Origin: Streptomyces sp. CNQ085
Lineage (GTDB): Bacteria; Actinomycetota; Actinomycetes; Streptomycetales; Streptomycetaceae
NCBI RefSeq assembly: GCF_022614595.1
Contig: NZ_JAJFAU010000034.1
Coordinates: forward strand, 1 to 36,023
Direction: 5' to 3'
Length of the DNA stretch: 36,023 nucleotides
Positions 14,993-23,147 of the stretch are shown piece after piece. Position numbers and translations under genes: made by a program. Below the pieces are notes generated by a model, which saw nothing but the letters and a program-made list of their open reading frames with translations, ran no database searches and was not told where the DNA came from. The number at the start of each line of letters is the position of its first letter. Position 1 is the first letter of the stretch.

Positions 14993-14996
14993 CCGA

Positions 14997-15101
14997 GCGG
15001 GCCGTGACTGGCGCGTAGGGATGGGACCAACCATCGGGGAGCGGCCCGCGCACCGGGCGTACGAGCCCGCTGCGCCGAAGAGCCGCGCGCCTGGGCCGCC
15101 C
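14997..15101 (+). ncRNA. ZTP (pfl) riboswitch upstream of glyA
   Basis: The aptamer hallmarks appear in order. GCGGGCCG (14997-15004) leads into GTGACTGGCG, then GGGACCAACCATCGGGGAGC, closing with CGGCCCGC (15042-15049), which pairs exactly with the first strand. A linker hairpin CGGGC/GCCCG follows, and then the GCGCCTGGGC segment that forms the second domain and pseudoknot. ZTP riboswitches sense ZMP/ZTP, which accumulate when 10-formyl-tetrahydrofolate is short, and turn on folate and one-carbon genes. Control of glyA fits that logic. The ribosome site AAGGAGGGG lies about 30 bases downstream. Confidence 0.9.
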
Positions 15102-15133
15102 GTACCGTCGTCGAGGACGTCAAGGAGGGGCCC

Positions 15134-16615
15134 ATGGCCACCGCATCCACCCCGCACACCGGCGGCGCCGCCCGGAACACCACCGCCGCCACCGCGTCGA
15201 CCGCCTTCAACAGCGCCCTGGACGTGGTCCGCGCCGTCGAGCCGCGCGTCGCCGACGCCATCGGCGCCGAGATCACCGACCAGCGCGCCTCCCTCAAACT
15301 GATCGCCAGTGAGAACTACGCCTCCCCGGCCGTACTGCTGGCCATGGGCAACTGGCTCAGCGACAAGTACGCCGAGGGCACCGCTGGCCGCCGCTTCTAC
15401 GCCGGGTGCCGCAACGTCGACACCGTCGAGACGCTGGCCGCCGAGCACGCCCGCGAGCTGTTCGGCGCCGACCACGCCTACGTCCAGCCGCACTCGGGCA
15501 TCGACGCCAATCTCGTCGCCTTCTGGTCCGTCCTGGCCCAGCGCGTGGAGAGCCCCGCCCTGGAGCGCGCCGGGGCCAGGCACGTCAACGACCTGTCCGA
15601 GGAAGACTGGGAGGAGCTGCGGCGGGCACTGGGCGACCAGCGGATGCTGGGCATGTCCCTGGACGCCGGCGGCCACCTCACACACGGCTTCCGCCCCAAC
15701 ATCTCCGGCAAGATGTTCACCCAGCGCAGCTACGGCACCGACCCGGCCACGGGTTTGCTGGACTACGACGCGGTGCGCGCCGCCGCCCGCGAGTTCCGCC
15801 CCCTCATCCTGATCGCCGGCTACTCCGCCTACCCGCGGAGGGTGAACTTCCGGATCATGCGGGAGATCGCCGACGAGGTCGGCGCCACCCTGGTGGTCGA
15901 CATGGCCCACTTCGCCGGACTGGTCGCCGGCAAGGTCTTCACCGGCGACTTCGACCCCGTGCCGCACGCCGACATCGTCACCACCACCACCCACAAGTCC
16001 CTGCGCGGCCCGCGCGGCGGCATGGTGCTGTGCCGCGAGGCACTGGCCGAGCACGTGGACCGCGGCTGCCCCATGGTGCTCGGCGGCCCGCTGCCCCACG
16101 TCATGGCCGCCAAGGCCGTGGCACTGGCCGAGGCCCGGCAGCCGTCCTTCCACGCTTACGCCAGGCAGGTGGTGGACAATGCCGCGGCCCTCGCCGAGGG
16201 CCTGATGCGCCGCGGCGCGCGCCTGGTCACCGGCGGTACCGACAACCACCTGGCCCTGGTGGACGTCACCGGCTACGGCCTCACCGGACGCCAGGCCGAG
16301 GACGCGCTGCTGGACGCCGGCATCGTCACCAACCGCAACGCGGTGCCGCGCGACCCCAACGGCGCCTGGTACACCTCCGGTATCCGCATCGGCACCCCGG
16401 CCCTGACCACGCGCGGTCTGGGGACGGCCGAGATGGACGAGATCGCCGACCTGATCCACACCACCCTCACAGCCGCCGAGCCGGGCACCACCGCGGCTGG
16501 CGCCCCCTCCAGGGCCCGGTACCGGCTGGAGCCCGGGATCGCCGAGTCCGTCGCCGGACGCGCCGCCGACCTGCTGGCCGGGCATCCGCTCTACCCCGGC
16601 ATCGACCTGGCCTGA
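15134..16615 (+). CDS. glyA: Serine hydroxymethyltransferase
   Basis: A 493-residue PLP enzyme that interconverts serine and glycine while loading one-carbon units onto tetrahydrofolate. The PLP lysine is K288 in [14 protein letters not shown]. Other family landmarks are [46 protein letters not shown] and the C-terminal [14 protein letters not shown]. It is longer than the usual 420 residues because of an about 30-residue N-terminal extension and an insertion ([29 protein letters not shown]) seen in one actinobacterial SHMT class. The ATG lies six bases after GGAGGGG. It is a single-gene transcript with a ZTP riboswitch in front and a hairpin behind, so folate stress should raise expression. 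Confidence 0.97.
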
Positions 16616-19180: not shown

Positions 19181-20371
19181 TCAGCGGCCCTCCGAGGCGG
19201 AGACCACCCGGAAGCCCGTTCCGGCCCGCACCAGCCGGCCGATCAGCGCGTCCCCCATCGCCACTGCCGTGGTGACCTGGCCCGAGGTCTGCGGCAGGTC
19301 GTCCAGCGCCAGACAGAGCGCCGACTCGGCCAGCATCCTCGCCGTCTCGTCGTAGCCCGGATCGCCGCCGGACACCTCCGTCACCACCCGACGGCCGCCG
19401 CCCTCCCCGAAGAAGCGGACCTTGAACCAGCTCTCCGCACGCTTTCGCGGACTCGGCCCGTCCCCCGGCGACAGCCGGGCCGACAGCGCGCGGCGCGCGG
19501 CCGGGAGCTGGGCGGCGGCGAAGAGCGCCCCCGCCCCGACCACGCCGCCCACGGCCACGGGCAGCGTACGGACGGCCGCGTAGTGGCGGTAGCGGAAGTC
19601 GGGACCGTAACGCTCCAGAGCGGCCGCCGACCGGGCCACGACCTGCGGATCGACCGTCGGCAGCGGTACCGCCCACACCCCCGCCTTCCCGCTGCGGCGC
19701 GGCCGGTCCAGCGGCGCGCTGACCCGGCGCCCGGCCGGACGGGACTCCACCCGCCGCCGCTCCCGCGCCGCGGCCCGCATCTGCCGGCCCCGGGAGATCG
19801 CCGTCAGCGCGGAGGCGAACGTCCCTCCGGAGAAGGCCGCCGACGCCCGCACATAGCCGTCGATCCGCAGCGGCACCCCCTCGGGCAGGCGCTCGACGGT
19901 GTACAGCACGCCCAGGTCGTGCGGCACCGAGTCGAAACCGCAGGCGTGCACCAGCCGCGCACCGGTACGGTGGGCCCGGTCGTGGTGGCGCAGATACATC
20001 ATGTCGACGAACTCCGGCTCGCCGGTGAGGTCCGCGTAATCCGTCCCCGCCTCGGCGCACGCGGCCACCAGCGGCTCCCCGTACTCGACGTACGGACCGA
20101 CGGTGGTGGCCACCACGGCGGCGCTCTCGGCCACCGTGCGCAGCGAGCCGGGATCGGTGACGTCGGCGTGCAGCAGCGGCAGTTCGGCGCAGGCCGGGTT
20201 GACCTGAGTCAGCCGCCCGCGCAGCCGCAGCAGCTTGTCGCGGTTGCGCCCGGCCAGCGCCCAGCGGCAGTCGCCGGGGGCGTGGGCGGCCAGGTACTCG
20301 GCCGTCAGCCCGCCGGTGAAACCGGTCGCGCCGAACAGCACCACGTCGTACTCGCGGTCGTTGCGGGGCAC
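19181..20371 (-). CDS. Saccharopine dehydrogenase-like NADP-binding oxidoreductase
   Basis: A 396-residue protein with an N-terminal Rossmann motif, YDVVLFGATGFTGGLTAEYLA, followed by WALAGRNRDKL and VVATTVGPYVEYGEPLVAACAEAGTDYADLTGEPEFV. These are diagnostic of the saccharopine dehydrogenase-like/trans-acting enoyl reductase family, represented in Mycobacterium by Rv2449c and Rv2953. The second half includes the conserved ACGFDSVPHDLG and a hydrophobic Ala/Gly-rich stretch (VAVGGVVGAGALFAAAQL) that may touch the membrane. In mycobacteria one member reduces a double bond in lipid synthesis; the substrate here is unknown. It is a single gene diverging from the MmcQ/YjbR gene and convergent with the small membrane protein. 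Confidence 0.9.
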   Translation of the reverse strand: MPRNDREYDVVLFGATGFTGGLTAEYLAAHAPGDCRWALAGRNRDKLLRLRGRLTQVNPACAELPLLHADVTDPGSLRTVAESAAVVATTVGPYVEYGEPLVAACAEAGTDYADLTGEPEFVDMMYLRHHDRAHRTGARLVHACGFDSVPHDLGVLYTVERLPEGVPLRIDGYVRASAAFSGGTFASALTAISRGRQMRAAARERRRVESRPAGRRVSAPLDRPRRSGKAGVWAVPLPTVDPQVVARSAAALERYGPDFRYRHYAAVRTLPVAVGGVVGAGALFAAAQLPAARRALSARLSPGDGPSPRKRAESWFKVRFFGEGGGRRVVTEVSGGDPGYDETARMLAESALCLALDDLPQTSGQVTTAVAMGDALIGRLVRAGTGFRVVSASEGR

Positions 20372-20434
20372 TCCTGACCTCCTGGGGTGATGAGAGGGAC
20401 GGCTGGGGCAGGATCACCTGTCGGTGTTCGACCC

Positions 20435-20440
20435 TACGCT
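20435..20440 (+). promoter_or_regulatory. -10 element of a probable leaderless gene
   Basis: TACGCT ends six bases before the ATG of the MmcQ/YjbR gene, with no ribosome site between: the same geometry as at 16670. Confidence 0.5.
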
Positions 20441-20446
20441 GGTGCC

Positions 20447-20863
20447 ATGAGCGATCGGACCGGGGGACGCGAAGGGCGCGGCGACGCGCAGGCGGTACGG
20501 GAGCGGGTGCGCGAGTTCGCCCTCCAACTTCCCGGTGCGTACGAGGACTTCCCCTGGGGAGAGTCCGTGGTCAAGGTCAACCGGAAGATCTTCGTCTTCC
20601 TCTTCCTCGGGCACCTCGTCGCGGGGCAGGGCGACTCCCCGCCCACCGTCACCGTCAAACTCACCGACCCCGAGGCCCACGCCCACGCGATGTCCGCCCC
20701 CGGCGCCCTTCTCACCGGCTACGGACTCGGCCGGGCGGGGTGGGTGACCATCCCGCTGGGCGGGCCGGGCACACCGGAAGCGGAGCTGCTGTGCGACTGG
20801 GTCGAGGAGAGCTACCGCACCGTCGCGCCGAGGCGACTGGTGGCGGAGCTCGACGCCGACTGA
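20447..20863 (+). CDS. MmcQ/YjbR family protein
   Basis: A 138-residue protein of the MmcQ/YjbR family (CyaY-like fold). Diagnostic segments are LQLPGAYEDFPWGESVVKVNRKIFVFLFL, TVKLTDPEAHAHAM, TGYGLGRAGWVTIPLG and LCDWVEESYRTVAPRRLVAEL. The family is usually labelled DNA-binding on weak grounds, and I would not rely on that. The first 20 residues (SDRTGGREGRGDAQ) are variable. It stands alone, convergent with the LysE gene; GCGGG-TGCTG-CCCGC at 20950-20964 is a weak hairpin that might end either transcript. Confidence 0.9.
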   Translation: MSDRTGGREGRGDAQAVRERVREFALQLPGAYEDFPWGESVVKVNRKIFVFLFLGHLVAGQGDSPPTVTVKLTDPEAHAHAMSAPGALLTGYGLGRAGWVTIPLGGPGTPEAELLCDWVEESYRTVAPRRLVAELDAD

Positions 20864-20978
20864 CGGCCGTGTCGGCTCGGGTTCGCGGCCCAGTTGGTGA
20901 GCGTGCGGTGTCCGGGCCGGTTCATACCGGGTGTGGACGCGGATCCCGGGCGGGTGCTGCCCGCAAGCCATGCGGCCG

Positions 20979-21590
20979 TCATGTGAGGTGGAGGAGGGAG
21001 TAGACGGCGAAGCCGAAGAAGAGGAAGGCGACGCCTCGGGTGATCCAGGGTGCTGCGCGGGCATAGAGCTTGCGGACGACTTGCAGGCCGACGACCCAGA
21101 CGAGCAGGGCGTCTGCGGTGACGCAGCCCAGGGCGCTGGCAAGGAGGAAGAGGGGGACGGTGGCGGCGGTGAGCAGGTCGATGTTCCCGGCGATGACGGA
21201 CGTGAAGACGGCCAGGGTGACGGGGTAGCTCTTGGGGTTGGTCAAGCCGAACACAGCACCGTGGGCGAGGGGGCGGCGCGCGTAGGCGGAAGCGCCGCCG
21301 TCGGGTGCGGAGGCCGCCATCAGCGCCCGGATGCCGAGGTAGGTCAGGTACAGGGCGCTGGCGATGGTCAGGACGGTGAAGACCACCGGGGACAGGAGTT
21401 GCACCCAGCGCAGGGCCAGCAGGGCGAGCAGGGCCCACATGACGTCGCCGGCCAGGTGCCCGAGGAGGAAGTGGGCGGCCTGTCGGCGCCCGCTGCCGGT
21501 GCCGATGTGCAGCACGGTGAGCACGCCGGGCCCGGGGGTGAGGACCACCAGGGCACAGGAGAAGGCGGTGGCGAGCAGGAGGGTGAACAC
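20979..21590 (-). CDS. LysE/RhtB family amino-acid exporter
   Basis: A 203-residue inner-membrane protein with about six hydrophobic segments. The family signature near the N-terminus is ALVVLTPGPGVLTVL, with GLTNPKSYPVTLAVF in the middle (the usual NPK element). The GTG start lies six bases after GAGGAG. LysE proteins export basic or small amino acids and related compounds. It begins 36 bases after the radical SAM gene on the same strand, so the two are probably co-transcribed. The natural inference is that it exports the enzyme's product, or relieves a precursor amino acid; the sequence does not decide which. Confidence 0.92.
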   Translation of the reverse strand: MFTLLLATAFSCALVVLTPGPGVLTVLHIGTGSGRRQAAHFLLGHLAGDVMWALLALLALRWVQLLSPVVFTVLTIASALYLTYLGIRALMAASAPDGGASAYARRPLAHGAVFGLTNPKSYPVTLAVFTSVIAGNIDLLTAATVPLFLLASALGCVTADALLVWVVGLQVVRKLYARAAPWITRGVAFLFFGFAVYSLLHLT

Positions 21591-21626
21591 ATCGGCTCCT
21601 CGGCGGTCCGGGCCGTCCGGGCGGGG

Positions 21627-23147
21627 TCAGGTGAGCTGGCTGTCAGAGATGCGGGCGGATCCGGAGACGGTGCCGTGCCGGTCGGCGTAGCCGCGAATGG
21701 CGCGGGTTGCCTCGACGAGCTCGTCCCAGCCGACGCGGCTGAAGATCTTGCACCAGTCCATGGAGATCTCGTCGAAGTCGATGATGTCGGTGCGGCCGTA
21801 CTTGTCGGGCATGGCGTCCAGGAGTGTCTCGTCGAGGATCTCGAAGCCCTTGTCCTTCGCCGTGGCCCGTGCGAGGTCGGGGTTCATCATCCAGCGGCCG
21901 GTCAGGGCACCGAAGTCGGGGTAGAGGGGCTGGGCTTCGAGTGCGGCCATCATCTCGTTGTCGATCAGCCACTGGGCGAAGGCGATGGTGTTGTCCAGGC
22001 TTTCGTGGGTCTCGCCCGGGCCTCCGAGGACGAGTGAGCCGTAGATGGGCAGACCGGCTTCCTTGAACAGGGCGCAGGCGCGCTGGTTGTTCTCCAGGCT
22101 GTCGCGCGGTCCTTTCAGCAGCTGGAGCATCCGGGTGTCGCCGGACTCCAGGCCCATGTTGACCCGGTACACACCCAATCGTTGATACAGGTCGACGATG
22201 CGCGGTGTGGTCTCGGCGGCCTGGGTGTAGACGAAGAACTTCGGATCACCGATGTCCTTGGGCCGGGCGTCCACCAGCCGCTCCACCCAGCGCGGGGAGC
22301 TGCTCATGCTGTCGAACGCCTCGTAGAAGATGGTGGCCGCGACCTGTTGCTGGGCGGCCCGGACGTCGTGCCAGAAGACTTCCGGTGAGGAGAAGCGAAG
22401 ACTCAGGTCCGCGATGCCACAGAAATGGCAGGGGTGTTTCACGCGTGCGCAGCCGCGGGCCCGGTTGATGGTCGTGACGCCGGTGACTTCCTCGTCGTCG
22501 TGCAGGCCTCCGTATCGGGCCAGGTAGTTCTGCCGGTAGCGTTCCCAGTTGGCCGCGGGCATCAGTGAACGGTCCGGTATCGGGATGGCGTCCAGGATGT
22601 TGCTGACCAGGGCTCCGCCACCCGGGCTGACGAGTGGAGCGGGAACTTCCGGCAGACGGTTGTGAGCGATGCCCTCACTTGTGCGGTAAAGCAGTTCGGG
22701 TACGGAGGCGAGGGGCCGCTTGCCGTCCAGGGCGTCGATGAAGGCGGACAGAGCGAACTCGCCGACATCCGCGGCGCACACGTAGTCCACGCTCTCGCGG
22801 TGGGCCAGGATCTGCCGGGACATGGCCGCCGCCTGGTCGTTGCCCAGGATGGTCACGGCCCCGGCGTTCTTCCCGGCCTCGGCTAAGCGAAGCGTGTTCA
22901 GATACGAGGTACCCAGGGCACTCAGGCCCAGGACGTCCGGTTCGAAGTCCCGGATGAGCCGCTCGATCTCCGGCATGGGGGTGATCTGACCGTCGAGCGC
23001 GATCACGTCCAGATACGGGTGGTCGCGCAGGAGGACCGTGGCGAGCGAGACCACGCCCAGGGCCGGGAACGTGCCGTCGTTGGCGATCGAGGACACGTCC
23101 CCGTCGGTGCCGGCATTGACGAGGAGGACTTTCCGCACGTGCTTCAC
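21627..23147 (-). CDS. Cobalamin-binding-domain radical SAM enzyme
   Basis: A 506-residue protein starting at GTG (KHVRKVLLVNAG) behind GGAAGGAAG. Residues 1-150 form a B12-binding Rossmann domain of the class lacking the DxHxxG histidine (GTFPALGVVSLATVLL, VIALDGQ, EPDVLGLSALGTSYLNTL, VTILGNDQAA). The radical SAM domain follows. Its cluster cysteines lie in RARGCARVKHPCHFCGIADLSLRF: C233, C240 and C243, that is C-x6-C-x2-C rather than the usual C-x3-C-x2-C. Downstream are VNMGLESGDTRMLQLLKGP and SLVLGGPGETHESLDNTI, typical of this superfamily. Such enzymes methylate or rearrange unactivated carbons. The substrate is not evident. It is paired with a LysE exporter. Confidence 0.9.
   Translation of the reverse strand: MKHVRKVLLVNAGTDGDVSSIANDGTFPALGVVSLATVLLRDHPYLDVIALDGQITPMPEIERLIRDFEPDVLGLSALGTSYLNTLRLAEAGKNAGAVTILGNDQAAAMSRQILAHRESVDYVCAADVGEFALSAFIDALDGKRPLASVPELLYRTSEGIAHNRLPEVPAPLVSPGGGALVSNILDAIPIPDRSLMPAANWERYRQNYLARYGGLHDDEEVTGVTTINRARGCARVKHPCHFCGIADLSLRFSSPEVFWHDVRAAQQQVAATIFYEAFDSMSSSPRWVERLVDARPKDIGDPKFFVYTQAAETTPRIVDLYQRLGVYRVNMGLESGDTRMLQLLKGPRDSLENNQRACALFKEAGLPIYGSLVLGGPGETHESLDNTIAFAQWLIDNEMMAALEAQPLYPDFGALTGRWMMNPDLARATAKDKGFEILDETLLDAMPDKYGRTDIIDFDEISMDWCKIFSRVGWDELVEATRAIRGYADRHGTVSGSARISDSQLT

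Follow-up and report, generated by a model that had tools for sequence, protein, structure and literature searches.

A cobalamin-type radical SAM enzyme recurrently paired with LysE-family exporters: a possible two-gene route to a secreted amino acid in Streptomyces sp. CNQ085

Many characterised cobalamin (B12)-dependent radical S-adenosylmethionine (SAM) enzymes are encoded within larger clusters and act on carrier- or peptide-bound substrates. Among the described enzymes closest in kind, excerpts of the respective papers present TsrM as a B12 radical SAM-type tryptophan C-methylase that acts on the free amino acid (PMC8992657), and Orf29, of norcoronamic acid synthesis, as a SAM C-methylase of the same type (PMC7277169). 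On the export side, the 4-formylaminooxyvinylglycine (FVG; gvg) cluster of Pseudomonas fluorescens WH6 joins LysE-family exporters to the synthesis of a toxic non-proteinogenic amino acid, and the producer needs at least one of its two such exporters for export and survival, according to part of that report (PMC8067088). Here we describe a cobalamin-type radical SAM enzyme and an adjoining LysE/RhtB-superfamily exporter, encoded on a 36,023-nucleotide contig of Streptomyces sp. CNQ085 (NZ_JAJFAU010000034.1; this whole stretch is the window). We propose, with a probability of roughly 0.45, that they form a self-contained make-and-export unit, in which a stand-alone C-methylase would act on a free amino acid and a dedicated exporter would release the product. 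Orf29, unlike the window enzyme, sits in a non-ribosomal peptide synthetase (NRPS) cluster with a pyridoxal phosphate enzyme, and the FVG cluster, unlike the pair, comprises 12 genes, with no radical SAM enzyme among those in the table passages of the same report. Literature searches that combined LysE with radical SAM or B12 terms gave no description of such a pair among the matches listed.

The pair recurs among relatives of the enzyme. We compared 19 loci, of which 12 encode close relatives assigned to two subfamilies, A (which includes the window enzyme) and B, and seven encode members of more distant B12 radical SAM families. A LysE profile search placed an exporter at nine loci (window, L009, L010, L011, L012, L030, L035, L036 and L037), that is, at nine of the 12 A/B loci and nine of the ten bacterial ones, each time adjoining the enzyme. 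None was found at the seven more distant loci (L032, L039-L043 and L045). The profile had been built from ten exporter sequences of the same loci, so that its matches show position only, and its absences are the test. The exporters of the window, L009, L010 and L011 are 61-83% alike, and in L009-L011 the enzyme stop codon overlaps the predicted exporter start (TAGTG). Those of Aeromicrobium, Rhizobium and subfamily B are only ∼22-37% identical to this group and to each other in local alignments, giving four exporter types in all paired with A/B enzymes, and in Aeromicrobium the exporter lies upstream of the enzyme. As the enzymes of Aeromicrobium and Rhizobium phaseoli are still 65% and 62% identical to that of the window, the exporters were most likely recruited separately.

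The pairing is also selective. At E ≤1e-30, an exporter of the window type was found in one of 293 genomes of the window's order, which is the source genome itself, and in two of 54 genomes of the genus Nonomuraea, both carriers of the enzyme and both with the exporter beside it. With the two samples joined, three of four carriers of enzyme A had this exporter and none of 343 genomes without enzyme A did. For comparison, the chance of a LysE neighbour is on the order of 0.1% per gene in the source genome, an estimate from the only two LysE genes that Pfam detects there; larger genomes hold more. The pairing of enzyme and exporter is thus recurrent and selective, and real. The initial annotation, which had proposed a compact two-gene pathway, had asked whether the pair is conserved among homologues: it mostly is. 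Location of the homologues in a known pathway was to have counted against the proposal, and the A and B relatives were found in no recognised pathway. The genomic part of the idea therefore stands on firmer ground than that annotation could know.

By sequence, the enzyme falls among the cobalamin-type radical SAM enzymes, yet in none of the named NCBIfam families with a match to it. A chance open reading frame (ORF) is excluded because relatives at 52-76% identity occur in other Actinomycetota and in an archaeon. The score for the radical SAM domain PF04055 exceeds the curated cut-off, which assigns the protein to that superfamily, and PF02310 together with fold matches to OxsB, TsrM and TokK over nearly the whole model gives it the architecture of class 1 cobalamin-dependent radical SAM enzymes (Table 1). 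All 16 NCBIfam models that matched at E ≤0.1 remained below their cut-offs. The strongest was TIGR03975, a C-methyltransferase family for maturation of ribosomally synthesised and post-translationally modified peptides (RiPPs), at 49.0 bits versus 281.85; the models for tryptophan 2-C-methyltransferase (TsrM; TIGR04428, 11.6 versus 500), the AprD4 diol dehydratase (NF033070, 22.4 versus 500) and ApyD (32.5 versus 750) scored still lower against their thresholds. The coordinates of the pair and the N-terminal B12 domain of the enzyme had been given correctly in the initial annotation, as had the 36-base gap to the LysE gene, whose Pfam match lies above cut-off.

Table 1. Features of the enzyme-exporter pair in the window
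Feature	Coordinates	Strand	Details and basis
Cobalamin-type radical SAM enzyme	21627..23147	-	506 aa; ATG start at 23147, stop codon 21627-21629; ORF, Pfam, relatives, AlphaFold model and fold match
B12-binding domain, residues 25-126	22770..23075	-	PF02310, 44.4 bits versus cut-off 32.1
Leu78, predicted residue under the cobalt of cobalamin	22914..22916	-	Aligned with OxsB Asn186; invariant in the A and B alignment
[4Fe-4S] cluster motif C233-x6-C240-x2-C243	22419..22451	-	Sequence; invariant; same spacing in 12 of 12 A/B sequences
Radical SAM core domain, residues 228-391	21975..22466	-	PF04055, 50.4 bits versus cut-off 29.5
LysE/RhtB-superfamily amino-acid exporter	20979..21590	-	203 aa; GTG start 21588-21590, ORF end 20979, 36 bp downstream of the enzyme; PF01810, 77.1 bits versus cut-off 25.6; co-occurrence with enzyme

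The predicted cluster motif of the enzyme, RARGC-ARVKHP-C-HF-CG, has the spacing CX6CX2C in place of the canonical CX3CX2C. When seven sequences of subfamily A and three of subfamily B were aligned, its three cysteines were the sole invariant ones, and the three-cysteine pattern of radical SAM enzymes is thus present with altered spacing; cluster binding is predicted. The spacing recurs in eight of eight A sequences (window included) and four of four B sequences, with both archaeal sequences among these 12, and it is therefore a stable trait of the family; the initial annotation had noticed it in the single sequence. Phylogenetically, subfamily A forms a clade (100/100). The archaeal sequence of L038 groups at weak support (80/77, with long branches flagged) with the three B sequences of Streptomyces type, so that its placement in B is provisional. 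The spacing is real and conserved and yet, taken alone, a weaker sign of novelty than the initial annotation had assumed: excerpts of a TsrM paper call exceptions to the radical SAM spacing 'not unusual' (PMC8992657), and in a profile alignment with the enzyme OxsB itself reads C-x4-C-x2-C. Expanded loops also occur in more distant families, with CX8CX2C in NRPS-linked relatives and X15 in a Streptomyces chartreusis protein, and the relative in phage SF3 has the ordinary CX3CX2C motif. Literature matches to 'CX6CX2C', the one notation searched, were all fungal by title and start of abstract, and none joined it to radical SAM and cobalamin.

The AlphaFold model of the enzyme (mean predicted local distance difference test (pLDDT) 72.5, predicted template modelling score 0.70) resembles OxsB most (Z 22.6 over 412 residues, 3.8 Å), followed by AprD4 (22.0), MgmA (20.5), CysS (20.0), TsrM (19.8) and TokK (17.9); other radical SAM proteins score ∼13 and below. 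With OxsB, TsrM, TokK, CysS and MgmA the model shares an N-terminal Rossmann B12 domain, a radical SAM barrel and C-terminal helices (Z 17.9-22.6, 366-426 residues), although identity in these fold alignments is only 13-17%. The enzyme further differs from class 1 enzymes in its CX6CX2C motif (versus CX3CX2C, or CX4CX2C in OxsB), in having the exporter as the only partner found and in the residue predicted to lie beneath the cobalt. At this last position, a profile alignment sets Leu78 opposite Asn186 of OxsB, which lies in the loop after strand 3 beneath the cobalt; the same loop contributes Arg in TsrM and Trp in TokK, according to part of the source (PMC13331322). Leu78 is invariant among the ten aligned A and B sequences, and, on ungapped reading, the C, D and phage-like families each have one or two members with Leu in this loop as well. 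The comparison suggests a hydrophobic, non-coordinating lower face, closer to that of the methylase TokK than to those of OxsB or TsrM.

Methyl transfer is our first choice of chemistry because this predicted lower face is closer to that of the radical methylase TokK. Alternatively, the enzyme might alter a free amino-acid-like compound without methylating it, by rearrangement, ring formation, dehydration or ring contraction, as do OxsB and AprD4, with the exporter secreting that product. The non-methylases OxsB and AprD4 are indeed among the best fold matches, and AprD4 was also the best match in a phmmer search of the PDB (E 0.00048). However, with Leu in place of the OxsB Asn under the cobalt, and with a C-methyltransferase family (TIGR03975, 49 bits, well below its cut-off) as the strongest of the 16 NCBIfam models, we consider non-methylating chemistry rather unlikely.

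The cargo is suggested by the exporters. Of the three subfamily-B exporters (L035-L037), the two that were scored, L035 (274.1 bits) and L036 (267.4), exceed the cut-off of 165 of the LeuE equivalog model NF008201, whereas those of Aeromicrobium (70), Rhizobium (88) and the window (45.8) fall below it. E. coli LeuE exports leucine, methionine and histidine and confers resistance to toxic leucine derivatives (PMC8140960). LeuE and PimT of Streptomyces natalensis belong to the LysE superfamily, as does the window exporter, PimT being likened to it by description only. We propose a free, probably neutral or leucine-like cargo because of the LeuE-type exporters of subfamily B and the export precedents in LysE/RhtB. 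That an amino-acid substrate is modified and then exported is plausible, judging from the exporter family, the predicted fold and the residue comparison.

In the proposed mechanism, the enzyme would load a methyl group from SAM onto cobalamin, and a second SAM, together with the cluster, would yield a 5'-deoxyadenosyl radical. This radical would abstract a hydrogen atom from an unactivated carbon of its substrate, a small free amino acid that may be neutral and hydrophobic, of branched-chain or leucine-like type, and methylcobalamin would deliver a methyl radical to the substrate carbon. The exporter would carry the resulting non-proteinogenic amino acid out of the cell and so protect the producer, and outside the cell the product might act as an antimetabolite or a signal.

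That the product is a diffusible signal (autoinducer) and not a toxin is an alternative that concerns its role more than the chemistry, and it overlaps with our proposal. Excerpts of its report describe PimT as an RhtB exporter for PI-factor, the inducer of pimaricin, and for homoserine lactone (PMC2698837), and in Rhizobium phaseoli LuxR and LuxI genes lie upstream of the enzyme and exporter. There, however, IS66-like genes separate the lux genes from the pair and the enzyme is frameshifted, and no signalling genes were noticed beside the other pairs, where no systematic search was made. We regard a purely signalling role as unlikely.

Several observations weigh against a make-and-export unit for a methylated amino acid. 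In one Nonomuraea sp. carrier (L014), the LysE profile found no exporter near the enzyme, and no window-type exporter was found genome-wide at E 1e-30; the two archaeal loci, L013 and L038, are likewise without a LysE gene by the profile. The Rhizobium pair is counted among the nine although a frameshift splits its enzyme. Moreover, the independent pairings number only about four, because four of the nine pairs (window, L009-L011) may share one origin. Within the model, the cluster loop (residues 228-252) has pLDDT <50. Two methylthiotransferases that are not known as B12 methylases, RimO and MiaB, also match its fold (Z 14.9-16.4). AprD4, another close fold match, is not known to need cobalamin, and the window enzyme may likewise bind none. 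The cargo of the window exporter need not be leucine-like, because its score lies below the LeuE cut-off.

Of these points, the exporter-free loci (L014 and the archaeal ones) and the possible common origin of the four pairs would also fit a chance or inherited accident of gene order, with the exporter unrelated to the enzyme. Against such an accident stand the scarcity of LysE genes in the source genome, the pairing with different exporter types in Aeromicrobium (upstream), Rhizobium and subfamily B, and the absence of the window-type exporter from all 343 sampled genomes without enzyme A, which together make an accident highly improbable.

The initial annotation had also named the exporter as the enzyme's only partner, and comparison of the neighbourhoods agrees. 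Among ORFs of ≥60 aa compared at E 1e-12 (window, L009-L014 and the short loci L017-L019, with L030 left out), no gene besides enzyme and exporter, and the frames that overlap them, was consistently common to the A loci; the remaining matches (24-47% identity) were at family level, scattered and differently placed from locus to locus. The three B loci shared a single further match (38%), also in different places. For smaller frames, we compared stop-to-stop frames of ≥20 aa within 1 kb upstream (ten loci) and 800 bp downstream (five loci) at E 1e-3. No upstream small ORF of the window matched any other locus. Downstream, one 23-column match between the window and L009 (E 7e-4, 52%) was taken as chance. 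Among L010, L011 and L014, short matches by the start codon resemble conserved DNA upstream of the gene, and some matches across unrelated loci came from a few long frames rich in GC. A RiPP precursor was accordingly rejected as a candidate.

These comparisons bear on the idea that the enzyme tailors a RiPP or an NRPS-bound residue made elsewhere, with the LysE cargo unrelated. The weak matches to the RiPP enzymes TIGR03975 and ApyD are in its favour, as are distant CX8CX2C relatives that adjoin NRPS genes. Yet both matches fall far below their cut-offs (49.0 versus 281.85 and 32.5 versus 750), the window and its relatives have no upstream small ORF in common, and the exporter is the only consistently shared flanking gene. 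We consider peptide tailoring very improbable.

Enzyme A is rare and patchy in the genomes sampled. It was found in one of 293 genomes of the window's order and one of 396 sampled across the phylum, in both cases the source genome, and in three of 54 of the genus of Nonomuraea endophytica. Further carriers are found in Microtetraspora and Aeromicrobium, and there is one Candidatus Aenigmatarchaeota genome with the enzyme (52% identity). These samples are subsets, and the 293 order genomes of the enzyme and exporter counts are taken as one draw. Subfamily B was found in three more genomes of the order, and an A or B-like form in two of 156 genomes of the archaeal phylum. The scan of genome contigs relied on six short peptides of the query as search patterns and detects close relatives only. 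Each of nine carrier genomes searched gave one match at E 1e-15, and the source genome gave a second, weak one (25%, E 1.7e-6). Among 72,556 plasmid records, enzyme A was present on one, that of Rhizobium phaseoli (62% identity), a copy that may be decayed because a frameshift splits it. A viral origin was rejected: the IMG/VR scan gave no relative, and the phage collection gave only the distant homologue (26%) of phage SF3, in two records, with its ordinary CX3CX2C motif. Part of the left flank of the pair (within 19201-20880 of the window) was matched in 45 of 60 other genomes, with four candidates scored per genome; neither the right flank nor the pair was matched in any of the 60. A left flank that occurs elsewhere without the pair fits acquisition by transfer.

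We tentatively suggest a mobile two-gene pathway, present in Actinomycetota and on a Rhizobium plasmid, with the enzyme alone also in DPANN archaea. From a common proteinogenic amino acid, one B12 radical enzyme would make a free non-proteinogenic one that is new, for example a C-methylated branched-chain amino acid, and a dedicated exporter would release this product to act as an antimetabolite or signal; NRPS, RiPP and other cluster genes would play no part. This broader reading is possible but somewhat doubtful. If true, few known routes to a secreted designer amino acid would be as small. Programs that find clusters by their NRPS, polyketide synthase or RiPP genes would probably overlook such a pair. 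The substrates of the enzyme superfamily are mostly obscure, and the exporter pairing, with its LeuE-type partners, offers a concrete substrate hypothesis.

The source genome also holds a 137-bp relic (L046, contig C19, 4539-4675) that is 88% identical to the 5' end of the window exporter. It includes DNA upstream of the exporter start and lies between other genes, as a decayed partial second copy.

On the R. phaseoli plasmid pRphaR744d (L030, 7419-14279), the gene order is LuxR, LuxI, IS66-type-like genes, the frameshifted enzyme and an exporter of the LysE family that is closest to RhtB; after the pair, on the other strand, follow flavoprotein/UbiD, isochorismatase and further genes. The Aenigmatarchaeota locus (L013, 9263-17952) has a divergent HTH_10 regulator by the enzyme, with amino-acid permease, aldehyde dehydrogenase, saccharopine-dehydrogenase-like and aminotransferase genes nearby. 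Both L013 and the Nonomuraea locus L009 combine a class-III aminotransferase with an aldehyde dehydrogenase and a saccharopine-dehydrogenase-like gene, but a link to lysine or gamma-aminobutyric acid catabolism was treated as coincidence, the genes being 24-31% alike and unmatched in the other A loci compared. As a hint of a phosphonate link, one of three subfamily-B loci (L036) has a phosphoenolpyruvate-mutase-family gene, which had no match in the other two.

No riboswitch was detected beside the pair at Rfam gathering scores. The sole Rfam match in the window is a ZMP/ZTP riboswitch (RF01750, 41.9 bits, E 0.00098) at 14994-15103 (+), and an ORF just downstream of it (15134-16615) reads like serine hydroxymethyltransferase (glyA).

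Among the distant relatives, a Streptomyces chartreusis plasmid (L032, 7478-10525) encodes an aminoacyl-tRNA editing protein (PF04073, YbaK-like), a B12-type radical enzyme with 26% identity to the window's and the X15 cluster loop, and an overlapping EamA exporter. At this one locus, the combination of editing factor, radical enzyme and exporter would be consistent with protection of the producer from an amino-acid analogue that is mischarged. No repeat of the cassette was found: one of 293 genomes had a relative (E 1e-60, 36%), whose locus (L045) has neither neighbour by reading, and none of the 18 other loci gave a match to the editing protein. CX8CX2C relatives occur at L039, L040, L041 and L045. 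On plasmids of Embleya and Streptomyces anulatus they lie next to genes for NRPS, phosphotransferase and urease subunits. By reading, an unannotated Kitasatospora plasmid has such a relative in a similar setting, and L045 has another among apparent other radical SAM genes. A Streptomyces plasmid (L042, 4086-7545) and phage SF3 (L043, 2073-5446) share the order hypothetical protein, B12 radical SAM enzyme, thymidylate kinase and NUDIX hydrolase, perhaps a nucleotide-modifying cassette. Finally, two enterobacterial plasmids (L031 and L033, 6031-6453) carry a 140-aa 'radical SAM' remnant, 41% identical to residues 252-399 of the enzyme and hence beginning after the cysteine motif, which sits between an arabinitol operon and arsenic genes.

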